Below, piece by piece: positions 5,830 to 51,748 of a stretch of 56,105 nt of DNA. Location: the NCBI GenBank assembly GCA_947624745.1, contig CANQLR010000015.1:1-56105 (forward strand). Direction: 5' to 3'. The notes beneath the pieces are model-generated. The model had not been told where the DNA came from, did not search any database, and saw only the letters and a list, made by a program, of their open reading frames with translations. Source of the stretch: an uncultured Clostridia bacterium. Lineage in GTDB: Bacteria; Bacillota; Clostridia; Oscillospirales; Ruminococcaceae. How positions within the stretch are numbered: position 1 is the first letter of the stretch; every line of letters begins with the position of its first letter. Position numbers and translations under genes: made by a program.

Positions 5830-6320
5830 AAGTTTGTTAAACGGGCTTGCCTAAGAGGGGGGGCGAAGGCGGGGCTTGCTCGGCGGGCGGTGCACCTGCA
5901 AAACAGGCGCACATGGGCTTCGCGATAGCGGCAAGGTGATTTAATGTGGTAAAGTGCAGGGTCTGAGGGCGAAGGCCCGGGCGCGCACGGAGTGCGCGCC
6001 AAAGGCCGCGCTTGCGCGGCCTTTACGGCGGCAACGAAGCTGCCCGCCTCGGGGCTTCGCCCCGGTTTCCTGCGTAAAGATAGCCCCCCTCCCGCCGGGG
6101 GGCTGCAGCATAGTTGTAGGTCTGCTCGAGGGTCGGAGGGGGTGGGGCTGAAAATAGCATGAGCGAGCGTGCAAGCGAATACCTTGTGCTGGTTTGCCCG
6201 GGGTCTGCTCAAGCGTATGGGCTTTGCGCAAAAATCGGCGCAGGGTTTGTAACGCGAAGGTGTTGCCGACCCGCATGGCGAAGCCCCAACGCCCGCGAAG
6301 CGGGCGTTGTCCGCCGCGGG
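5830..6320. repeat. Hairpin-rich intergenic repeat block A
   Basis: About 500 bp without a credible gene, made of short GC-rich palindromes. 5870-5962 is an inverted copy of 9550-9640. 5975-6075 holds hairpins with GGAG, CTTG and CGAAG loops that resemble 44305-44395. 6083-6107 is the C-rich/G-rich hairpin module, in the opposite orientation to other blocks together with 6135-6185 (the AGGTATTCGC module reversed). 6278-6316 is a forward copy of the module GGCGAAGCCCCAA-hairpin-TTGTCCGCCG. Long open frames here on both strands are by-products of GC-rich palindromes. Confidence 0.75.
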
Positions 6321-6412
6321 GAAGAGAATTCTTTTCAAAAGGCAAAAGTACCTCACAGTCCTTGCCATTTAAATGGATTATGTCCCCTTAAATTGCAAAC
6401 ATCAGCTATTTG

Positions 6413-6571
6413 CTATTTTGTCTTTTTGTCGTTTTCTTTGCGTATAGTTCCAATCTTTTTATCACTTCTTGTGTCGCGGCCGTTTTGATTTCTTATCGTG
6501 CCGGCGGGAAGTCCTCTCGTTTTTTCAAAGGTTCCAACTGTGCAGTCACTTCTCGTTTTTCTGATTGCCAT
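6413..6571 (-). CDS. Small basic protein, 52 residues
   Basis: A short gene with an unusually good start: GGAGG, 8-nt spacer, ATG at 6571. The product begins MAIRKTRSDCTVGTFEK and is rich in Lys, Arg, Thr and Asp, with a repeated RDTRSDKKIGTIRK-like character; it has no membrane segment. It follows the membrane protein gene (ending at 6602) by 30 bp on the same strand, so the two are probably one operon driven from 7061-7089. The high positive charge would suit nucleic-acid binding, but I do not recognise a family. AT-rich compared with the surrounding chromosome, so likely acquired with its partner. Confidence 0.6.
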   Translation of the reverse strand: MAIRKTRSDCTVGTFEKTRGLPAGTIRNQNGRDTRSDKKIGTIRKENDKKTK

Positions 6572-6601
6572 AAAATAATCCTCCAATTCTTTGAAAATAA
6601 A

Positions 6602-7027
6602 TTACCATATTAGTATCATGCTGATAACAATAAAAATAACCAGTATAGCATATGTAAGATAATCAATGACTTTCCAGAAGTCAAATTCTTTAGTAAATAA
6701 ATCTCTTAAAAACCAAAACGGTGTAAATATCAGTCCCATGATTTCTTCCGCTATATGTGACAAGATAATAACGAAAATAAAATCAGAATCAAATGTCAAG
6801 CCTTCACCATTATCCGCATACTTTGATTCATAGGCGCCGATAATAGCTATAGGGGCAAACAGAACGGAAGCCCAAAACAGGTAGCAAAAGAAAAACACCG
6901 GAAAGCCCTGCGGGTGAAAGCCATAATTCACCAAAGCAGAAATGCTTACCTTTTTCATGATCAGAGCGATAATTGCCGAAACTAATCCGTAAAAAGAAAC
7001 CTCGTGCAATTTTCCAATCACAGACAC
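6602..7027 (-). CDS. Small integral membrane protein, unknown function
   Basis: An AT-rich gene in a GC-rich neighbourhood. The start is best placed at the GTG at 7027, because the Shine-Dalgarno aaggggtga lies just before it; an upstream ATG at 7045 would put that site inside the gene. The product is ~141 residues with about four hydrophobic segments (LVSAIIALIM, FFFCYLFWASVLFAPIAII, FIFVIILSHIAEEIMGLIF and the C-terminal LTYAILVIFIVISMILIW). No family recognised. First gene of a probable two-gene operon with the 52-residue basic protein. Confidence 0.75.
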   Translation of the reverse strand: MSVIGKLHEVSFYGLVSAIIALIMKKVSISALVNYGFHPQGFPVFFFCYLFWASVLFAPIAIIGAYESKYADNGEGLTFDSDFIFVIILSHIAEEIMGLIFTPFWFLRDLFTKEFDFWKVIDYLTYAILVIFIVISMILIW

Positions 7028-41925: not shown

Positions 41926-42999
41926 TCACACTTTACCTCTTTTCGCCGCGAAATATGCCTTGTTGGCCAGAACCGACGGGTGGCCGGGCTCGATTTTTTC
42001 GGCAAGCAGGTTAAATTTTTCCGAGAGATCATGCTGCCCGAGGCGGTCGCAAATCACGCAGAGCTGTAAATACGGCACCAGTCCCCCGTAATCCGCCGGG
42101 ACGAACCCGCCGAGGCGCTTTCGGTACTGCCCCGGGGCCATGAGATACCAGAGCTTTGCGGCGTTAAGGTCGCCTTTTTCCAAAAACCTCCGCCCCATCT
42201 CGCAGCAGAGGTCGGCCCTCGGCTCGCCCAAAAGAAGGCAGTAGGAGAGTTCAAGGTCGGCGGCCTCTCGCTCGCCCATATCTAAAAGCAGCTGCGAGAG
42301 TTCGAACGAGGCGGATATGCGCGTTTCAAGCCAGCCGGACGGGTCGCGCGAGCAGCGCAGGAACCAATTTTTGGCCTCCTCACGCCGCCCGGCAGAGAGG
42401 AGCTCGCGCGCGAGGTAGTAGCTCTCCCTCGGGGGCAAAAAGCCGTCGCGAAGGAGCTTTTTCTCCAAAATGCGAAGGTTTCGCGCGGGGTCGGAGGGCT
42501 TTATTTTTCGGTGTTCGATGTACGCGGGGCTGTGGATTATTTTTCCGCGCGGAGGCACCGCCTCGTGCACCTCGCCGACAAAGCGGAACGCGGGGTCGTT
42601 TTTAAAAATCCTCTCGCGAGGATACTCGAGGGTCGCCCTCTCCCCCGAAAAGCCGACGCGATAGTTAAGCATCACGATATCGGGGCGCTCGGTTTCGAGC
42701 CGGGAAAAGAGGTTTTTGAGCTCCTCGCGGCTCTCGGGCGGGATCACGTCGTCGGCGTCGAGCCACATGATGTAATCCCCCGAAGCCTTTGAGATAGCGA
42801 AGTTGCGCGCCGCCGAAAAGTCGTCCGCCCACTCGAAATCGAAAACGTTCCGGGTGAATTTAAGGGCCTCCTCACGGGTCCTGTCCCGCGAGCCGGTGTC
42901 GACGATAACGATCTCGTCGAAAAGCCCCGCGGCGCTTTCAAGGCACCTCGGCAGGGCGGCCTCCTCGTCGCGGACTATCATGGTAAGCGAAATTTTCAT
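41926..42999 (-). CDS. Family 2 glycosyltransferase with TPR-like tail
   Basis: 357 residues from ATG 42999 (GGAGG six bases upstream). GT2 domain of the SunS/WaaE type: [35 protein letters not shown] and [15 protein letters not shown], where DADD is the metal/nucleotide-sugar motif. The C-terminal ~130 residues are helical repeats ([38 protein letters not shown]) like TPRs, common in protein glycosyltransferases. Divergent from the collagen-like protein across ~145 bp, which makes the Thr-rich GXT repeats a likely substrate. Confidence 0.85.
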
Positions 43000-43077
43000 A
43001 AAAAGCCTCCGAAGTTTTTTATACATTATATTCGCGCGGGAGGCTTTTAAAGACCGTGGCGGCGGGGCGCGGGGCTG

Positions 43078-43085
43078 CATAAAAT
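43078..43085 (+). promoter_or_regulatory. Possible sporulation (sigma-E/K-like) -10 element
   Basis: CATAAAAT is one mismatch from the CATACAnT -10 consensus of mother-cell sigma factors, 60 bp before the collagen-like gene. No -35 match was found, and no sigma-A promoter is visible in the divergent region. Tentative. Confidence 0.25.
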
Positions 43086-43144
43086 GTATTACGGCGACAA
43101 AGCGCGCCGCCTCCCTCGGGAGGTATCTATCTGGAGGAAAATTT

Positions 43145-44281
43145 ATGGAAATAAACAATTGCGGGTGCTGCGGCGGACTGCCGAACGGCACCAACGTATA
43201 TAACTTCGGCTGCGGCGCGGCCGGCGGAGGCGGTTACGTCATCGGCCCCACCGGGGTCACCGGTCCAGCCGGCCCCGTCGGCGCAAGAGGAGCCACCGGC
43301 GAAGCGGGAGCCCCCGGCGTCACCGGCGCTACGGGTGCAACGGGAGCCACGGGTGCAACAGGCGCAACGGGCGCGGCCGGAGCTGCGGGTCCCACGGGCG
43401 CTGCGGGTCCCGCCGGGGCAACGGGAGCTACGGGAGCGACAGGAGCGACAGGCCCTGCCGGCGCCACCGGCCCCGCAGGAGCCCCCGGACCCGTGGGCGT
43501 GACTGGGGCGACGGGGGCGACAGGTGCGACTGGGGCTACCGGGCCTGAGGGACCTGCGGGTGCTGACGGCGCTACTGGTGCGACGGGTCCGACTGGCGCA
43601 ACTGGGCCTATTGGTCCTACGGGAGCAACTGGTCCTATTGGGCCTATCGGTTCGACCGGAGCAACCGGGCCCACTGGTGCAACTGGTCCGATCGGGCCAA
43701 CTGGTGCTACAGGCCCTGCGGGTGCTGACGGTGCTACGGGAGCTACGGGTGCTGACGGTGTTACTGGTGCGACGGGTACTACTGGTCCTATTGGGCCCAC
43801 CGGCGCAACCGGACCCACTGGGGCTACCGGGCCGACCGGGGCAACCGGTGCCACAGGGGTCACCGGGCCGACCGGGGCTGCGGGGCCCGCGCCTGTCAGC
43901 GCGTTTGCGCAGGTCTACAACACCGCGGCGCAGGCAGTTCCGGCGGGGAGCCCCGTCACCTTTGACAGCACCTCCGCGGCGAACGGGGTGAGCTTCACGA
44001 ACGGCGGGAGCGCCATCACCCTGAACGAGCCGGGGACCTACCTTATTCAACCCTATATCGCGCCGGACGCCGCCGGGAGCTTTGCCGTCGAGCGAAACGG
44101 CGAGCTTGTCGCGGGAGGAACGCTCCCGAACAACGGTAGCGCGGCCTCGGGGCCGGTGGTGATAACTGCGCAGGCGGGCGACACCGTCAGCGTGGTCAAC
44201 ACCGGGACTGCCGCCGCTAACCTTCCTGCGGACGCCGCCGCGCCTAACGCGACGGTGCTGGTGCAGAGGCTGGGGGATTAA
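43145..44281 (+). CDS. Collagen-like Gly-X-Thr repeat protein (BclA-like spore surface protein)
   Basis: 378 residues from the ATG behind ggaggaaaattt. A short Cys/Gly-rich N-terminus ([22 protein letters not shown]) is followed by ~215 residues of uninterrupted Gly-X-Y triplets (GPTG, GATG, GPIG types) and a ~130-residue C-terminal domain ([22 protein letters not shown]...[13 protein letters not shown]...[11 protein letters not shown]) like the trimerising C-terminal domain of BclA. BclA proteins form hair-like filaments on the exosporium with sugars on Thr. The repeats show strong nucleotide-level repetition, so length probably varies between strains. Confidence 0.88.
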
Positions 44282-46216: not shown

Positions 46217-48835
46217 ATGGAAAAAAGAATCTATGAAACCGTCGACAGCGTTAAAAAGCTTGAATCGCTGATCGGCAGGGTGCGCAAGGCTCAGGCCAAA
46301 TTTGCGGAATTCTCTCAGGCCGAGGTCGACAAAATTTTCCTTGCCGCCGCGACGGCCGCCAACCGGCAGAGGATACCGCTCGCCAAGCTTGCCGTCGAGG
46401 AGACCGGCATGGGCGTTGTGGAGGACAAGGTCATCAAAAACCATTACGCCTCCGAGTATATCTACAACCAGTATAAGGACTTCAAGACCTGCGGCGTCAT
46501 CGAGGAGGACGTCTCGGGCGGCATGAAAAAGGTCGCCGAGCCCATAGGCGTCATCGCGGCGGTCATTCCCACCACCAACCCGACCTCCACCGCCATCTTC
46601 AAGACCCTTATCTCGCTAAAGACCCGAAACGGCATCATAATCTCCCCTCACCCGAGGGCGAAAAAGTCGACCATCGAGGCGGCGCGGATAGTTTTGGAGG
46701 CCGCCGTCGAGGCCGGAGCCCCGGAGGACATCATCGGCTGGATAGACGTCCCGACCCTTGAAATGACCACGCTTCTGATGCGCGAGGCGGACATTATCCT
46801 CGCCACGGGCGGCGCGGGAATGGTAAAATCCGCCTATTCGAGCGGCAAGCCCGCCCTCGGTGTCGGCGCGGGCAACACCCCCGCGATCATCGACGACTCC
46901 GCCGACGTAAAACTTGCGGTAAATTCAATAATTCACTCAAAAACTTTCGACAACGGCATGATCTGCGCCTCCGAGCAGTCGGTCATCGTTCTTGACGGCG
47001 TTTACGACGAGGTCAAGGAGGAATTTTCCCGCCGCGGCTGCCACTTCTTAAGCCCCGAGGAGACCGACATGGTCCGCCATACGATGATCATAAACGGCGC
47101 TCTGAACGCGAAGATCGTCGGCCAGCGTGCCCCGAAGATAGCCGAGCTCTGCGGCTTCACCGTCCCCGCCGCCACCAAAATTCTTATCGGCGAGGTCGAG
47201 AGCGTCGATCTTTCGGAGGAATTCGCCCACGAAAAGCTTTCGCCGGTCTTGGCAATGTATCGCGCAAAGAGCATCAAGGACGCCTTCAAAAAGGCCGAGC
47301 GGCTTATCGCCGACGGCGGCTTCGGGCATACTTCCTCGATTTATCTCAACGTGCAGACCGAGCAGGCAAAGCTCAACGAATTTGCCGAGAGAATGAAGAC
47401 CTGCCGCATTCTGGTGAACACCCCCTCCTCGCAGGGCGGCATAGGAGACCTCTACAACTTCCGCCTCGCGCCGTCGCTGACCCTCGGCTGCGGCTCGTGG
47501 GGAGGCAACTCGGTGTCCGACAACGTCGGCGTGAAGCACCTTCTGAACATAAAGACAGTCGCCGAAAGGAGAGAGAACATGCTCTGGTTCCGCGCACCCG
47601 AAAAGGTATACATCAAAAAAGGCTGCCTGCCCACGGCGATGAACGAGCTTAAGGAAATGGGCAAAAAGCGCGCGTTCGTCGTCACCGACAGCTTCCTCTA
47701 CAAAAACGGCTACGCAAAGCCGATAACCGACAAGCTTGAAGAGCTCGGCATCGCCTACACCTGCTTCTTCGACGTCGAGCCCGACCCCACCCTTGCCTCG
47801 GCAAAGGCGGGAGCAAAGGCAATGACCAGCTTCGAGCCCGACCTTATAATCGCTCTGGGCGGCGGCTCGGCGATGGACGCCGGAAAGATAATGTGGGTCC
47901 TTTACGAGCACCCCGAGGCGGACTTCGCGGACATGGCGATGAGATTTTCGGACATCAGAAAGAGGGTATACAAGTTCCCGCACATGGGCGAGAAGGCCTA
48001 CTTCGTCGCGGTGCCGACCTCTGCCGGCACGGGCTCCGAGGTAACACCCTTCGCGGTCATCACCGACGAGACTACCGGGGTGAAATATCCCCTTGCCGAC
48101 TATGAGCTTCTGCCCGACATGGCGATAATCGACACCGATTTCCACATGTCGGCTCCCAAGGGGCTTACCTCTGCTTCCGGCATCGACGCCGTCACCCACG
48201 CCCTCGAGGCCTACGCCTCGGTCATGGCGACCGATTTCACCGACGGCCTCGCGCTTCAGGCTCTGAAAATAATCTTCGAGTACCTCCCGAGGGCCTATGA
48301 AAACGGCTCCGACGTTGAGGCGAGGGAGAAGATGGCCAACGCCGCGACCATGGCGGGCATGGCGTTTGCGAACGCGTTCTTGGGGGTGTGTCACTCGATG
48401 GCGCACAAGCTCGGCGCGTATCATCACATCGCGCACGGCGTTGCAAACGCGCTTCTGATAGACGAAGTCATCCGCTTCAACTCGGCCGAGGTCCCCGCGA
48501 AGATGGGCACCTTCCCGCAGTACGCCTATCCTCACGCGCTTGAAAGATACGCCGAGATCGCCGATTCTCTGGGCCTCAAGGGCAGTAACGACAGGGCGAA
48601 GGTCGAAAGCCTCATCAAGGCGATAGACGAGCTCAAGGCGAAGATAGGCATAAAGCCGACCATCAAGGACTATGTGCCGGACGAGAATAAGTTCCTCGAA
48701 ACGCTCGACGAAATGGTCGAGAACGCCTTCGACGACCAGTGCACCGGCGCGAACCCGAGGTACCCGCTTATGAGCGAGATCAAAAAAATGTATCTTAACG
48801 CATATTACGGCAAAAAATGGACGGAGGAGGAGTAA
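46217..48835 (+). CDS. adhE: Bifunctional aldehyde-alcohol dehydrogenase AdhE
   Basis: 872 residues, normal length. The N-terminal acetaldehyde dehydrogenase domain (residues ~1-440) has IPTTNPTSTAIFK, GVGAGNTPAIIDD and FDNGMICASEQS with the catalytic Cys. The C-terminal iron-dependent alcohol dehydrogenase (~450-872) has ALGGGSAMDAGKIMW, VPTSAGTGSEVTPFAVI and CHSMAHKLGAYHHIAHG with the metal-binding His residues. It reduces acetyl-CoA to ethanol in two NADH-dependent steps and forms spirosomes. Start behind taggagg. Followed two bases later by the APH-fold kinase gene. Confidence 0.97.
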   Translation: MEKRIYETVDSVKKLESLIGRVRKAQAKFAEFSQAEVDKIFLAAATAANRQRIPLAKLAVEETGMGVVEDKVIKNHYASEYIYNQYKDFKTCGVIEEDVSGGMKKVAEPIGVIAAVIPTTNPTSTAIFKTLISLKTRNGIIISPHPRAKKSTIEAARIVLEAAVEAGAPEDIIGWIDVPTLEMTTLLMREADIILATGGAGMVKSAYSSGKPALGVGAGNTPAIIDDSADVKLAVNSIIHSKTFDNGMICASEQSVIVLDGVYDEVKEEFSRRGCHFLSPEETDMVRHTMIINGALNAKIVGQRAPKIAELCGFTVPAATKILIGEVESVDLSEEFAHEKLSPVLAMYRAKSIKDAFKKAERLIADGGFGHTSSIYLNVQTEQAKLNEFAERMKTCRILVNTPSSQGGIGDLYNFRLAPSLTLGCGSWGGNSVSDNVGVKHLLNIKTVAERRENMLWFRAPEKVYIKKGCLPTAMNELKEMGKKRAFVVTDSFLYKNGYAKPITDKLEELGIAYTCFFDVEPDPTLASAKAGAKAMTSFEPDLIIALGGGSAMDAGKIMWVLYEHPEADFADMAMRFSDIRKRVYKFPHMGEKAYFVAVPTSAGTGSEVTPFAVITDETTGVKYPLADYELLPDMAIIDTDFHMSAPKGLTSASGIDAVTHALEAYASVMATDFTDGLALQALKIIFEYLPRAYENGSDVEAREKMANAATMAGMAFANAFLGVCHSMAHKLGAYHHIAHGVANALLIDEVIRFNSAEVPAKMGTFPQYAYPHALERYAEIADSLGLKGSNDRAKVESLIKAIDELKAKIGIKPTIKDYVPDENKFLETLDEMVENAFDDQCTGANPRYPLMSEIKKMYLNAYYGKKWTEEE

Positions 48836-48837
48836 TT

Positions 48838-49587
48838 ATGGATCTTTCCAACATCATAGCCGAGCGCCCGACAAAAACGGTCTACCGCGACGGCGGCCGC
48901 TGCATAAAGCTCTTTGCCGAGGGCTACAGCAAGGCGAATATCTTAAACGAAGCGCTGAACCAGGCGCGCATCGAAGAGACCGGGCTTCCGATACCGAAGC
49001 TTTTGGAGGTCACCATGATAAACGGCCGCTGGGCAATAGTTTCGGAGTATATCGAGGGGAAGACGCTCCAGCAACTCATGGACGAAAACCCCGAAAAGAA
49101 GCAGGAATATCTTGAGCTTTTGGTCGACATTCAGGTCGAGATACAGTCAAAGACCTGCCCCATGCTCAACAAGCTCAAGGACAAGATGAACTCGAAGATC
49201 TCTCAGGCCCGCCTCGACGCGACCACGAGATACGAGCTCCACGTCCGCCTCGATGGAATGCCGAAGCACAACAAGGTCTGCCACGGCGACTTCAACCCCT
49301 CGAATGTCATCATCACCGACGACGGAAAGTGGTACGTCATCGACTGGGCGCACGCCACGCAGGGCAACGCCTCGGCCGACGCCGCAAGGACATACCTTCT
49401 GTTCTGCCTCTCGGGAGAATACGAGACCGCAAAGAGATACCTCGACCTGTTCTGCTTAAAATCCGACACCGCGCGGCAGTACGTCCAGAAGTGGATGCCG
49501 ATAGTCGCGGCCTCGCAGTCGGTAAAGGAAAAGGAAAAGGAAAGAGAGTTCCTCCTCAACTGGGTGAACGTCGTCGATTACGAGTAA
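48838..49587 (+). CDS. Aminoglycoside phosphotransferase-fold kinase
   Basis: 249 residues from ATG 48838 (ggaggaggag upstream), two bases after the adhE stop. APH/choline-kinase fold: the catalytic loop HGDFNPSNVII carries the catalytic Asp and metal-binding Asn, and YVIDWAHATQGN carries the metal-binding Asp that replaces DFG. N-lobe with a Lys-containing RCIKLFAEG. A linked role in small-molecule or protein phosphorylation is likely rather than antibiotic resistance, given the housekeeping context. Substrate unknown. Confidence 0.82.
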   Translation: MDLSNIIAERPTKTVYRDGGRCIKLFAEGYSKANILNEALNQARIEETGLPIPKLLEVTMINGRWAIVSEYIEGKTLQQLMDENPEKKQEYLELLVDIQVEIQSKTCPMLNKLKDKMNSKISQARLDATTRYELHVRLDGMPKHNKVCHGDFNPSNVIITDDGKWYVIDWAHATQGNASADAARTYLLFCLSGEYETAKRYLDLFCLKSDTARQYVQKWMPIVAASQSVKEKEKEREFLLNWVNVVDYE

Positions 49588-49590
49588 GCC

Positions 49591-50601
49591 ATGATAGTTA
49601 TTTTGAAACGCGACCCCGACAAGGCGCAGCTCCGCTCGCTTATGACCTGGCTCGAATCGAAGGGCGTGAGCGTACACACCACCGTCGGCGCGCAGCAAAC
49701 GATACTCGGGCTGGTCGGCGACACCTCGGCCATAGATATCGACCTCATTTCGGCTCTCGATATCGTCGAGGCTGTTCGCCGCGTTCAGGAGCCCTATAAA
49801 AACGCAAACAGAAAATTCCACCCGCAGGACACCGTCGTCACCGTAAAGGGGGTAAGTATCGGCGGGGGGAGGCTCGCCGTGCTGGCGGGGCCCGGCGCGG
49901 TCGAGAGCAGGGAACAAATAGTCTCCCTTTCCGAGCGCTTAAAGGCCGCCGGAGCGGACATCTTATGGGGCGGGGCGTATAAGTCCCGCTCCTCTCCCTA
50001 TTCCTTCCAGGGGCTTCGGGCCGAGGGGGTAAAATATCTCTGCGAGGCGGGAAGTCTCTGCGGGCTCCCCGTCGCGGCCGAGCTTGCCGACATCTCGCAG
50101 GCCGAGGAGCTCAAGGATGTCGACATCATCATCGTCGGCGCAAGGAACATGCGAAACTACGAGCTTTTACGCTTCCTCGGCGGGATAAATAAGCCGGTGA
50201 TACTTAAGCGCGCGGTCTCGGCGACATACGAGGAACTTCTGATGAGCGCCGAATACATAATGTCCGCCGGCAACCCCGAGGTGATACTCTGCGAGCGGGG
50301 GATACGCACCTTCGAGCCTCATACGAGCTTCACCTTCGACATCTCGGCGATACCCGTATTAAAGCAGCTCTCGCATCTTCCGGTGATAGCCGACCCCTGC
50401 TATGCGGCGGGGAGCTACAGCCTGGCCGAGCCTCTTTCCGAGGCAGCCGCGGCGGCGGGCGCGGACGGGCTTCTTCTGGTCGTGAACGCAGACCCCGCGC
50501 ACGCTTTGTGCGACGGGCCGCTCTCAATAAAGGTCGAGGGCTTTGAAAAAACAGTCAAAAAGGTGAGAAGGATAGAAAAAACGCGCTTGGAAAGCGACTG
50601 A
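49591..50601 (+). CDS. DAHP synthase-like protein (AroF type I-beta) lacking metal ligands
   Basis: 336 residues, colinear with Thermotoga-type DAHP synthases including the N-terminal ferredoxin-like domain (residues 1-70). Substrate-binding segments are kept: GGAYKSRSSPYSFQG, IIVGARNMRNYELL, VILKRAVSATYEE and VILCERGIRTFE. But metal ligands are not: Cys of GPCxVE is Gly102 (AGPGAVES), His of DPSH is Tyr271 (DPCYAAG), Glu of VEVH is Val297 (LLLVVN); only Asp308 (CDG) remains. DAHP synthases need the metal, so activity is doubtful; it may be a regulatory or repurposed paralogue. Start three bases after the kinase stop; pheA-like gene follows after 13 bp. Confidence 0.85.
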   Translation: MIVILKRDPDKAQLRSLMTWLESKGVSVHTTVGAQQTILGLVGDTSAIDIDLISALDIVEAVRRVQEPYKNANRKFHPQDTVVTVKGVSIGGGRLAVLAGPGAVESREQIVSLSERLKAAGADILWGGAYKSRSSPYSFQGLRAEGVKYLCEAGSLCGLPVAAELADISQAEELKDVDIIIVGARNMRNYELLRFLGGINKPVILKRAVSATYEELLMSAEYIMSAGNPEVILCERGIRTFEPHTSFTFDISAIPVLKQLSHLPVIADPCYAAGSYSLAEPLSEAAAAAGADGLLLVVNADPAHALCDGPLSIKVEGFEKTVKKVRRIEKTRLESD

Positions 50602-50614
50602 CGGGGGCGAGGAC

Positions 50615-51748
50615 ATGGCGATTGACGAGATAAGAAAAGAGATAGACGAGCTCGACCGGGAGCTTTTGCCGATAATTTTAAAGAGAATGGAGCTTTCGGC
50701 AAAGGCTTCGGAGGAAAGCGGATTAAGCCCCGCCGAGATAAAGGGGCGGGAGCGGGAGATGCTTAAGTGGGCGACCGAGCGCGGCGGCGACATGGAGCCG
50801 TACATACACCGCTTTTACAGCTCGCTGTTCGAACTCGGGCGGGCATACCGCGAATGCCGCGACCCCGGAAGCACCAAGGTGAGAAAAATGCTCGCCGAGG
50901 TGCTTGAAAAGGACTTCGGCGAATTTCCGCAGAGCGGCACCGTCGCCGTTCAGGGGGTCGAGGGCGCAAATTCGCAGATGGCGGCGGACAGCCTCTTTCC
51001 GCGCGGAAACCTCATGTTCTTCAAGAGCTTCGAGGCGGTCTTCGACGCCGTGGAGAGCGGGCTTTGCCGCTTCGGCGTGATACCGATAGAAAACTCCTCG
51101 AACGGCTCGGTGAGGGCGGCGTACGAGCTTTTAAACCGCAAAAACGTCAGCATAGTAAAGTCCACACGGCTCTGCATACGCCACGAGCTTTTGGCTAAGC
51201 CGGGCACCAAGCTCAGCGATATCCGCGAGATTCGCTCCCACGAGCAGGCGCTCGGGCAGTGCTCCGAGTTTCTAAAGAGCCTCGGCGGGAAGGTCTCGGT
51301 CGTTCCCTGCGCGAACACCGCCATGGCGGCCGAGCTTGCCTCGCGTTCCGAATTCGGCGACATCGCGGCGATCGCCTCCCACCCCGCCTGCGAGCTCTAC
51401 GGGCTTGTGCCGATCGCCGAAAATATCCAGAACAGCGACAACAACTACACCCGCTTCATCTGCATTTCCAAGGAGCGGGAGATATACCCCGGCGCGGACA
51501 GGATAAGCCTGATCCTCGCCCTAAAGCACCGCCCCGGCGCGCTCTACGAGATACTTGCGCGGCTGACCGCGCTCGAGATAAACCTTATAAAGCTCGAGAG
51601 CTGCCCCATCGTCGGCCACGATTTCGAGTTCATGTTCTTCTTCGAGATGCAGGGCTCGGTCCGCGACCCGAGAGTTGCGGCCATGCTCGAAACGCTTGAG
51701 CAGACCTGCGAGAGCTTCAAGTTCTTGGGAAACTATGCGGAAAGCTGA
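50615..51748 (+). CDS. pheA: Chorismate mutase/prephenate dehydratase (P-protein)
   Basis: 377 residues: AroQ chorismate mutase (~1-85), prephenate dehydratase (~107-285), ACT domain (~297-370). The two domains would make phenylpyruvate from chorismate. The dehydratase TRF motif (NYTRFICIS, 279-281) and ENSSNGSV are present. In the mutase, Arg7 and Arg24 match E. coli Arg11 and Arg28, but Lys39 falls on a Ser/Glu stretch (ASEESG) and Asp48 is not apparent. In ACT, the Phe-binding motifs GALV and ESRP read GALY and ESCP. Start behind ggggcgagg. So dehydratase activity looks sound while mutase activity and feedback inhibition are doubtful. Confidence 0.9.
   Translation: MAIDEIRKEIDELDRELLPIILKRMELSAKASEESGLSPAEIKGREREMLKWATERGGDMEPYIHRFYSSLFELGRAYRECRDPGSTKVRKMLAEVLEKDFGEFPQSGTVAVQGVEGANSQMAADSLFPRGNLMFFKSFEAVFDAVESGLCRFGVIPIENSSNGSVRAAYELLNRKNVSIVKSTRLCIRHELLAKPGTKLSDIREIRSHEQALGQCSEFLKSLGGKVSVVPCANTAMAAELASRSEFGDIAAIASHPACELYGLVPIAENIQNSDNNYTRFICISKEREIYPGADRISLILALKHRPGALYEILARLTALEINLIKLESCPIVGHDFEFMFFFEMQGSVRDPRVAAMLETLEQTCESFKFLGNYAES

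Follow-up and report, generated by a model that had tools for sequence, protein, structure and literature searches.

The stretch of DNA analysed here (the window, 56,105 nucleotides from an uncultured Clostridia bacterium) contains an open reading frame of 336 amino acids (49591..50601, + strand), which starts with ATG and runs without interruption. As judged from the reading frame, Pfam and alignment, it encodes a homologue of type I-beta DAHP synthase (DAHPS) that is deficient in metal ligands, referred to as DHS hereafter. The gene located 3 nt upstream, kin (48838..49587, + strand), encodes an APH/RIO-like phosphotransferase; it is preceded by an adhE-type bifunctional aldehyde/alcohol dehydrogenase gene (46217..48835, + strand), the upstream gene of a conserved run. 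On the other side DHS is followed by pheA (50615..51748, + strand), whose product is a P-protein composed of CM, PDT and ACT domains. Elsewhere in the window, nucleotides 42803-44281 encode one long collagen-like Gly-X-Thr repeat protein; at Rfam gathering scores, the whole window yielded a tRNA and nothing else.

DHS contains one ferredoxin-like (FL) effector-sensing domain (residues 1-70; 49591..49800, + strand) and one (beta/alpha)8 barrel (residues 76-325; 49816..50565, + strand). The Pfam models PF18152, for the FL domain, and PF00793 matched residues 1-67 (3.3e-20) and 82-326 (2e-55), respectively. DHS aligns colinearly and with no large gaps to the DAHPS of Thermotoga maritima (1rzm, 4grs), and belongs to the FL plus (beta/alpha)8 barrel sequence family of the type I-beta enzymes. 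It also scores above the NCBIfam cut-offs of NF006421 (394 bits; cut-off 335) and TIGR01361 (313.6; cut-off 267.75). Prediction from the single sequence was poor (pLDDT 42) and was replaced by a model based on 39 aligned rows, which reached a pLDDT of 92.2; its top structural matches are T. maritima-type DAHPSs, and the engineered KDO8P synthase structures 2nxg and 2nxh are also among the matches. Modelling, which the original prediction had proposed as a check, thus predicts that the DAHPS fold is intact.

Passages of PMC6362186 list which residues of type I-beta enzymes bind the metal, PEP and E4P, with Arg126 among the PEP contacts. Alignment with the T. maritima enzyme bore out the original prediction that three of the four metal ligands are replaced. 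Cys is replaced by Gly102 (GGC, 49894..49896), His by Tyr271 (TAT, 50401..50403) and Glu by Val297 (GTC, 50479..50481), all on the + strand; Asp308 (GAC, 50512..50514, + strand), which is an E4P contact too, is the single ligand retained. The same three ligands are gone in all 14 members of the clade to which DHS belongs. Position 102 is fixed as Gly (14/14), while position 271 (Tyr 4, Asn 7, Ser 1, Ile 1, Asp 1) and position 297 (Val 1, Ala 6, Thr 6, Phe 1) are variable; among 94 canonical rows, all four ligands are present in every row covering the position. The further claim that the substrate contacts remain held in part. Lys131, Arg133, Arg185, Lys206, Arg236 and Asp308 are each retained in 14/14 clade members, and four of the five counted positions of the PEP site are kept in DHS. 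However, Arg126 is lost throughout, being Trp in 13 members, including the window (TGG, 49966..49968, + strand), and Met in one. As for E4P, Arg133 and Asp308 are retained, and position 134 is Thr in 11 members and Ser in three, the window among them. Measured against the list of PMC6362186, DHS is therefore incomplete in its PEP and E4P contacts. Pro132 of the KPRTS motif is replaced by Ser in 14/14.

Could other residues supply the missing ligands? Positions 297-299 hold no compensating ligand: canonical proteins have EVH there, the window has VVN and the remaining 13 members have xVH. Cys at position 270 occurs in the window only, the other 13 members having Ser. Across the clade alignment, no conserved Cys, His, Asp or Glu substitute was found near the lost ligands. 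Shifted ligands, named in the original prediction as a refutation, were therefore rejected. The near-fixed derived residues at canonically invariant positions are Gly102, Leu117, Trp126, Ser132, Tyr190 and Leu311, with Arg188 present in 10/14 only; no acidic, basic, Cys or His residue has become newly fixed at such positions in the clade. DHS has almost certainly lost DAHPS catalysis.

A type I-beta gene is present in all 31 genomes of the genus. Cys, His and Glu are absent in 14 of them (G000, the window's genome, G003, G004, G005, G007, G010, G011, G015, G016, G017, G018, G020, G022 and G028), and all four ligands are retained in the other 17. A tree built from 38 selected rows unites the 14 degenerate genes with a support of 100/100 on a stem of 0.41; the nearest canonical relatives are weakly resolved. 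Because the same state recurs in 14 genomes of one clade, sequencing error, also listed as a possible refutation, and assembly artefact were rejected. The TAA of G022 was considered as a premature stop and rejected, as it is the natural stop after 327 codons.

The canonical rows comprise 74 of 75 related loci (L038-L112) and 20 others, some of them near-copies. In these rows 95 barrel sites are invariant (at least 97%), of which 72 are kept in at least 13/14 clade members. Losses are enriched at the metal ligands: three of the four are gone, compared with 20 of the remaining 91 barrel sites (Fisher p 0.043). Of the FL-domain sites that are invariant in canonical rows, 12/12 are retained. A clade profile of 13 rows, built without G022, was searched against 396 family genomes. 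The six degenerate genomes of the genus within this sample scored 634-672 bits, and the next protein scored 522. The ligands are canonical in all of the next 24 loci (L187-L210), below which residues were read for a minority of the matches, and there are no clade members among four weak-scoring genomes (G121, G148, G155 and G174). As clade-level scores in the 396 family genomes occur only in this genus, a wider distribution of the clade was rejected.

We then compared selection on the two domains using IQ-TREE codon models. For the 14 clade sequences, omega is 0.088 overall, 0.031 for the FL domain and 0.098 for the barrel; for 16 canonical genus-mates, the FL and barrel values are 0.037 and 0.029, respectively. 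Reference values (12 sequences each) are 0.036 for kin, 0.043 for adhE and 0.028 for the type I-alpha DAHPS described below. Mean pairwise identity follows the same pattern: it is 0.90 for the FL domain and 0.72 for the barrel in the clade, versus 0.89 and 0.92 in the canonical genus-mates. Since these omegas rest on saturated trees (tree length 6-12), close pairs were checked. Eight close clade pairs gave omegas of 0.047-0.105 (barrel 0.057-0.113; FL 0.009-0.049, one undefined) and six canonical pairs gave 0.029-0.046 for the barrel and 0.00-0.10 for the FL domain (one undefined); several of the dS values are high, and the contrast between FL domain and barrel is one of omega values set side by side. 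One canonical pair, G001/G023, has a loose FL domain (omega 0.102). Taken together, the constraint has moved: the FL domain is as tight as in the canonical set, whereas the barrel is about threefold looser. The frames are intact in 14 genomes at an omega of 0.088; a pseudogene was thus rejected, in agreement with the earlier argument that an intact frame speaks against simple decay. DHS is an intact gene under purifying selection that has lost catalytic residues, as is characteristic of pseudoenzymes.

The window's genome holds a second, canonical DAHP synthase, which the original prediction had suggested looking for. It is of type I-alpha (TIGR00034) with canonical motifs. Of the 14 degenerate genomes, 13 carry such a gene, which in G020 is truncated by the contig end, against 0/17 canonical genomes of the genus, although phylogenetically this co-occurrence is close to one event. 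A second CM is found in the same 13 genomes, as a CM-AroB fusion in the three examined. The exception, G007, has neither; its assembly is 86% complete. In the window's genome (G000), the type I-alpha gene closes a run of CM-aroB fusion, aroC, aroE-aroK, aroQ, aroA, tyrA and aroF-Ia; as judged by Pfam, this run lacks none of the seven steps to chorismate. The fusion gene heading this replacement operon (L176:3628-4920, - strand, contig C22) carries CM at the N-terminus of 3-dehydroquinate synthase; we know of no description of a CM-AroB fusion.

The gene order around the type I-beta gene differs as well. In the canonical genome G026, this gene comes first and is followed by tyrA, aroB, aroA, aroC and pheA; at 10 canonical loci, of which G041 and L048 are seemingly the same locus, pheA starts 4.0-5.8 kb past the start of the type I-beta gene. 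In 13/14 clade genomes, DHS and pheA are directly adjacent, with a gap of -11 to 68 nt; in G015 they lie on different contigs. The order adhE, kin, DHS, pheA is found in 11/14 clade genomes. The kin gene sits between adhE and DHS in 12/14; the G011 contig starts within kin, truncating the gene, and neither adhE nor kin was found in the examined stretch of G016.

PheA is the sole prephenate dehydratase found in the window's genome; a single PDT match per genome, lying within PheA, was found in all 31 genomes. The NNYTRF motif is present in 14/14 clade members. Using E. coli CM positions, we found that the CM domain of PheA (50615..50866, + strand) has lost Lys39 (Ser), Ser84 (Gly) and Gln88 (Arg) and kept Arg11, Arg28, Arg51 and Glu52. 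Throughout the clade Gln88 is Arg (14/14), Lys39 is absent in 13/14 (G017 has Lys), Ser84 is Gly in 13/14 and a short loop is deleted; Arg11, Arg28, Arg51 and Glu52 remain. With these four kept, and with the Lys of G017, weak CM activity is possible. In 15 aligned P-proteins from genomes with canonical or G240-type DAHPS (see below), Arg11, Arg28, Lys39, Arg51, Glu52, Ser84 and Gln88 are all kept; the G084 row begins past the CM domain and was excluded. The three examined CM-AroB fusions keep the same seven residues, except for S84A in that of G020; Asp48 is variable in this comparison. In the clade, omega is 0.108 for the CM domain of PheA and 0.033 for PDT-ACT (13 sequences). Where the E. 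coli P-protein has the ACT motif ESRP, most clade members, like canonical G026 and L036, have ESCP, so that feedback by Phe on PheA may already differ.

Outside the genus, type I-beta residues were checked in 17 genomes carrying a type I-alpha gene and in four more genomes of genus g132; G086 and G215, two sample genomes with both types, lie outside these 21. The type I-beta gene is intact in 19/21, and the two others, G240 and G422, both belong to g132. In G240 (L251:5665-6621, - strand), His271 is changed to Arg, and Arg126, Lys131 and Arg236 are lost; in G422 (L257), the metal ligands are kept, and Lys206 and Arg236 are lost. FL and barrel identities to the intact gene of G345 are 0.857 and 0.776 for G240 and 0.943 and 0.732 for G422; for intact genes they are 0.957 and 0.968 (G386), 0.871 and 0.952 (G297), and 0.871 and 0.792 (G161), so that the shift is clear in G422 alone. 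The CM domain of G240 is intact, hence CM loss has not followed there; no pheA was found in the examined stretches of G422 and G297. G240 and G422 are two independent erosions in another genus, in genomes carrying type I-alpha. With 19 genes intact and two eroded, type I-alpha permits erosion and does not force it. The type I-beta gene of a Lawsonibacter MAG (L086:6001-6975) has Lys131 changed to Asn, Pro132 to Ser and Gln140 to Trp with the metal ligands kept, possibly another erosion. Two canonical type I-beta genes lie close together in Clostridia and Lentisphaerae records (L103:3448-4422 and 6001-6975; L053:801-1787 and 6001-6996).

The reading we favour, at a probability of roughly 0.6, is that DHS is a catalytically dead DAHP synthase retained for sensing through its FL domain, with PheA as its most likely partner. 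Of its parts, the FL-domain constraint and gene order make it highly probable that DHS is a non-catalytic sensor; that PheA is the partner is somewhat better than an even bet. The ancestor of DHS would have been a type I-beta DAHPS heading an aromatic operon, as in the canonical relatives. Catalysis may then have passed to a second shikimate operon, complete and equipped with a type I-alpha DAHPS and an AroB-fused CM of its own. The old locus would have been reduced to DHS and pheA, with loss of catalytic residues from both the DAHPS barrel and PheA's CM domain. The FL domain may still bind an aromatic amino acid (Phe or Tyr), the signal being passed to the degenerate CM domain and PDT. We take position 29 to be an effector contact in the T. 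maritima enzyme; it varies in the clade (His 7, Gln 6, Arg 1), and effector specificity may therefore have changed. In T. maritima DAHPS, FL-bound Phe or Tyr blocks access to the active site (passages of PMC5526877 and PMC5545217), and in several bacteria CM domains regulate or depend on DAHPS (PMC5526877, PMC12202928 and PMC4281200). By analogy with fusions of type I-beta DAHPS and CM, a ligand-dependent DHS oligomer could dock on the dead CM domain and tune the sole prephenate dehydratase, which catalyses the step that commits to phenylalanine. PEP, E4P or phosphate could be sensed through the anion contacts that are retained (Lys131, Arg133, Arg185, Lys206 and Arg236). Amino-acid sensing alone does not explain them; a phosphometabolite may be sensed, or the fold may need them.

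Constraint on the FL domain, a looser barrel and CM loss in the same lineage together make a non-catalytic regulator, one of the roles originally proposed, the best fit, and the second DAHPS agrees with it. Also in its favour are the clade-wide ligand loss, the distribution of type I-alpha (13/14 versus 0/17), the adjacency of DHS and pheA, the extent of CM loss (14/14) and, by analogy, the precedents for DAHPS-CM partnership and FL sensing. Against it, the two genes could lie side by side as a remnant of the old operon, the threefold loosening of barrel and CM would also be expected from slow decay, and the clade stem is long (0.41). The split of DHS and pheA in G015, the loose FL domain of G001/G023, and G007, which has no type I-alpha gene, also count against it, as do the 19/21 intact type I-beta genes, from which it follows that gain of type I-alpha alone does not kill type I-beta.

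If DHS is a non-catalytic sensor, it might have another protein as its partner, such as the neighbouring kinase, the type I-alpha DAHPS or the CM-AroB fusion, and sit next to pheA by inheritance only. The selection and loss data are equally compatible with this, and the four-gene order in 11/14 genomes makes the kinase nearly as good a neighbour as PheA. However, pheA alone of the old operon stayed beside DHS (13/14), its CM domain degenerated in the same lineage, and type I-alpha DAHPSs normally have their own allosteric site; we regard another partner as unlikely, though a serious candidate. DHS might also have no present role and be decaying slowly after becoming redundant, held by weak residual selection such as avoidance of toxic misfolding. 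The second DAHPS does make it redundant; relative to the canonical barrel and to PheA's own PDT, the barrel and CM domain have loosened about threefold, and independent erosions occurred in the type I-alpha-carrying G240 and G422. But frames are intact in 14 species, with omegas of 0.047-0.105 in the eight close pairs; FL constraint is undiminished, the six contacts from Lys131 to Asp308 are kept in 14/14, and loss is concentrated at the metal ligands (Fisher p 0.043). Slow decay is thus improbable.

Those same six residues are what would recommend an active protein, whether a DAHP synthase that needs no metal or a novel aldolase that uses PEP, working on the retained anion pocket, as the original prediction had entertained; metal-free KDO8P synthases, both a natural class and engineered proteins (2nxg, 2nxh), occur in the same superfamily. 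Both forms are disfavoured. The PEP contact Arg126 is lost in 14/14, and the residues at positions 271 and 297 are variable, some of them being hydrophobic; for an aldolase, no new polar catalytic residue has been fixed at the canonically invariant positions, and the constrained part of the protein is the FL domain, not the barrel. All reported DAHPSs are moreover metalloenzymes according to passages of PMC6362186, and this explanation is very improbable. It is hardly credible that DHS is still a working DAHPS with its metal held by other residues: Asp308 and most substrate contacts are kept, but three of four ligands and Arg126 are gone in all 14 members, no conserved Cys, His, Asp or Glu lies nearby as a substitute, and a canonical-looking type I-alpha DAHPS is present.

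DHS is thus most likely a real, conserved pseudoenzyme of a family described, in passages of PMC6362186, as always metal-dependent. Among the matches listed from a library of 5.39 million open-access papers, in which subscription journals are largely missing, there was no dead DAHP synthase. A group of related gut bacteria has kept the sensor domain intact after probable loss of catalysis, which suggests a role as a regulator. If the dead DAHP synthase indeed serves as a sensor, the regulatory half of a textbook allosteric enzyme has been split from its catalytic half in nature, and it can be read from the direction of selection which of the two matters. The genes would form a graded series, from intact through partly eroded (G240, G422) to dead but long conserved, and apart from one incomplete genome the eroded and dead forms occur alongside a replacement enzyme. 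Tentatively, and with the odds against it, one may go further: a dead DAHPS and a dead CM domain may be what is left of a displaced pathway, now dedicated to allosteric control, with the FL sensor docked on the CM domain and controlling the sole PDT. This would be a natural uncoupling of DAHPS allostery from catalysis, perhaps beginning again in G240 and G422. DHS is also an annotation trap: as it passes an NCBIfam DAHP synthase equivalog cut-off, metabolic models would credit an activity that is very likely absent.

Among known systems, T. maritima TM0343 (PDB 1rzm, 1vr6, 4grs) shares 41-44% identity and the same FL plus barrel architecture with DHS. The substrate contacts Lys131, Arg133, Arg185, Lys206 and Arg236 are kept as in TM0343-type enzymes; unlike these, DHS has lost three of four metal ligands and Arg126, and its constraint is concentrated on the FL domain, not on the barrel. 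Non-metallo KDO8P synthases belong to the same barrel superfamily and, like DHS, have lost the metal-ligand Cys; they change only this Cys to Asn, keep His, Glu and Asp, and remain active. DHS has Gly at position 102, and its His and Glu are gone too, which sets it apart from that class. HisZ, which has the fold of class II aminoacyl-tRNA synthetases, offers a parallel in another pathway. It is a regulatory protein with an enzyme-like fold that controls an amino-acid enzyme, ATP phosphoribosyltransferase (PMC9734150 and PMC10795190); its fold and pathway are unrelated to those of DHS, and its regulation has been shown by experiment. DAHPS-CM partnerships are known from the fusions of B. subtilis, Listeria and Geobacillus and from the non-covalent complex of M. 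tuberculosis, and in these systems one partner controls the other (PMC5526877, PMC4281200 and PMC7762937; PDB 5j6f is among the structural matches of the DHS model). Like them, DHS places the DAHPS fold beside a CM domain; different from them, both DHS and the CM domain have lost catalytic residues, the two are separate polypeptides, and the CM domain lies inside a prephenate dehydratase. The adjacency (13/14) and CM loss (14 genomes) are suggestive of such a partnership between DHS and PheA.
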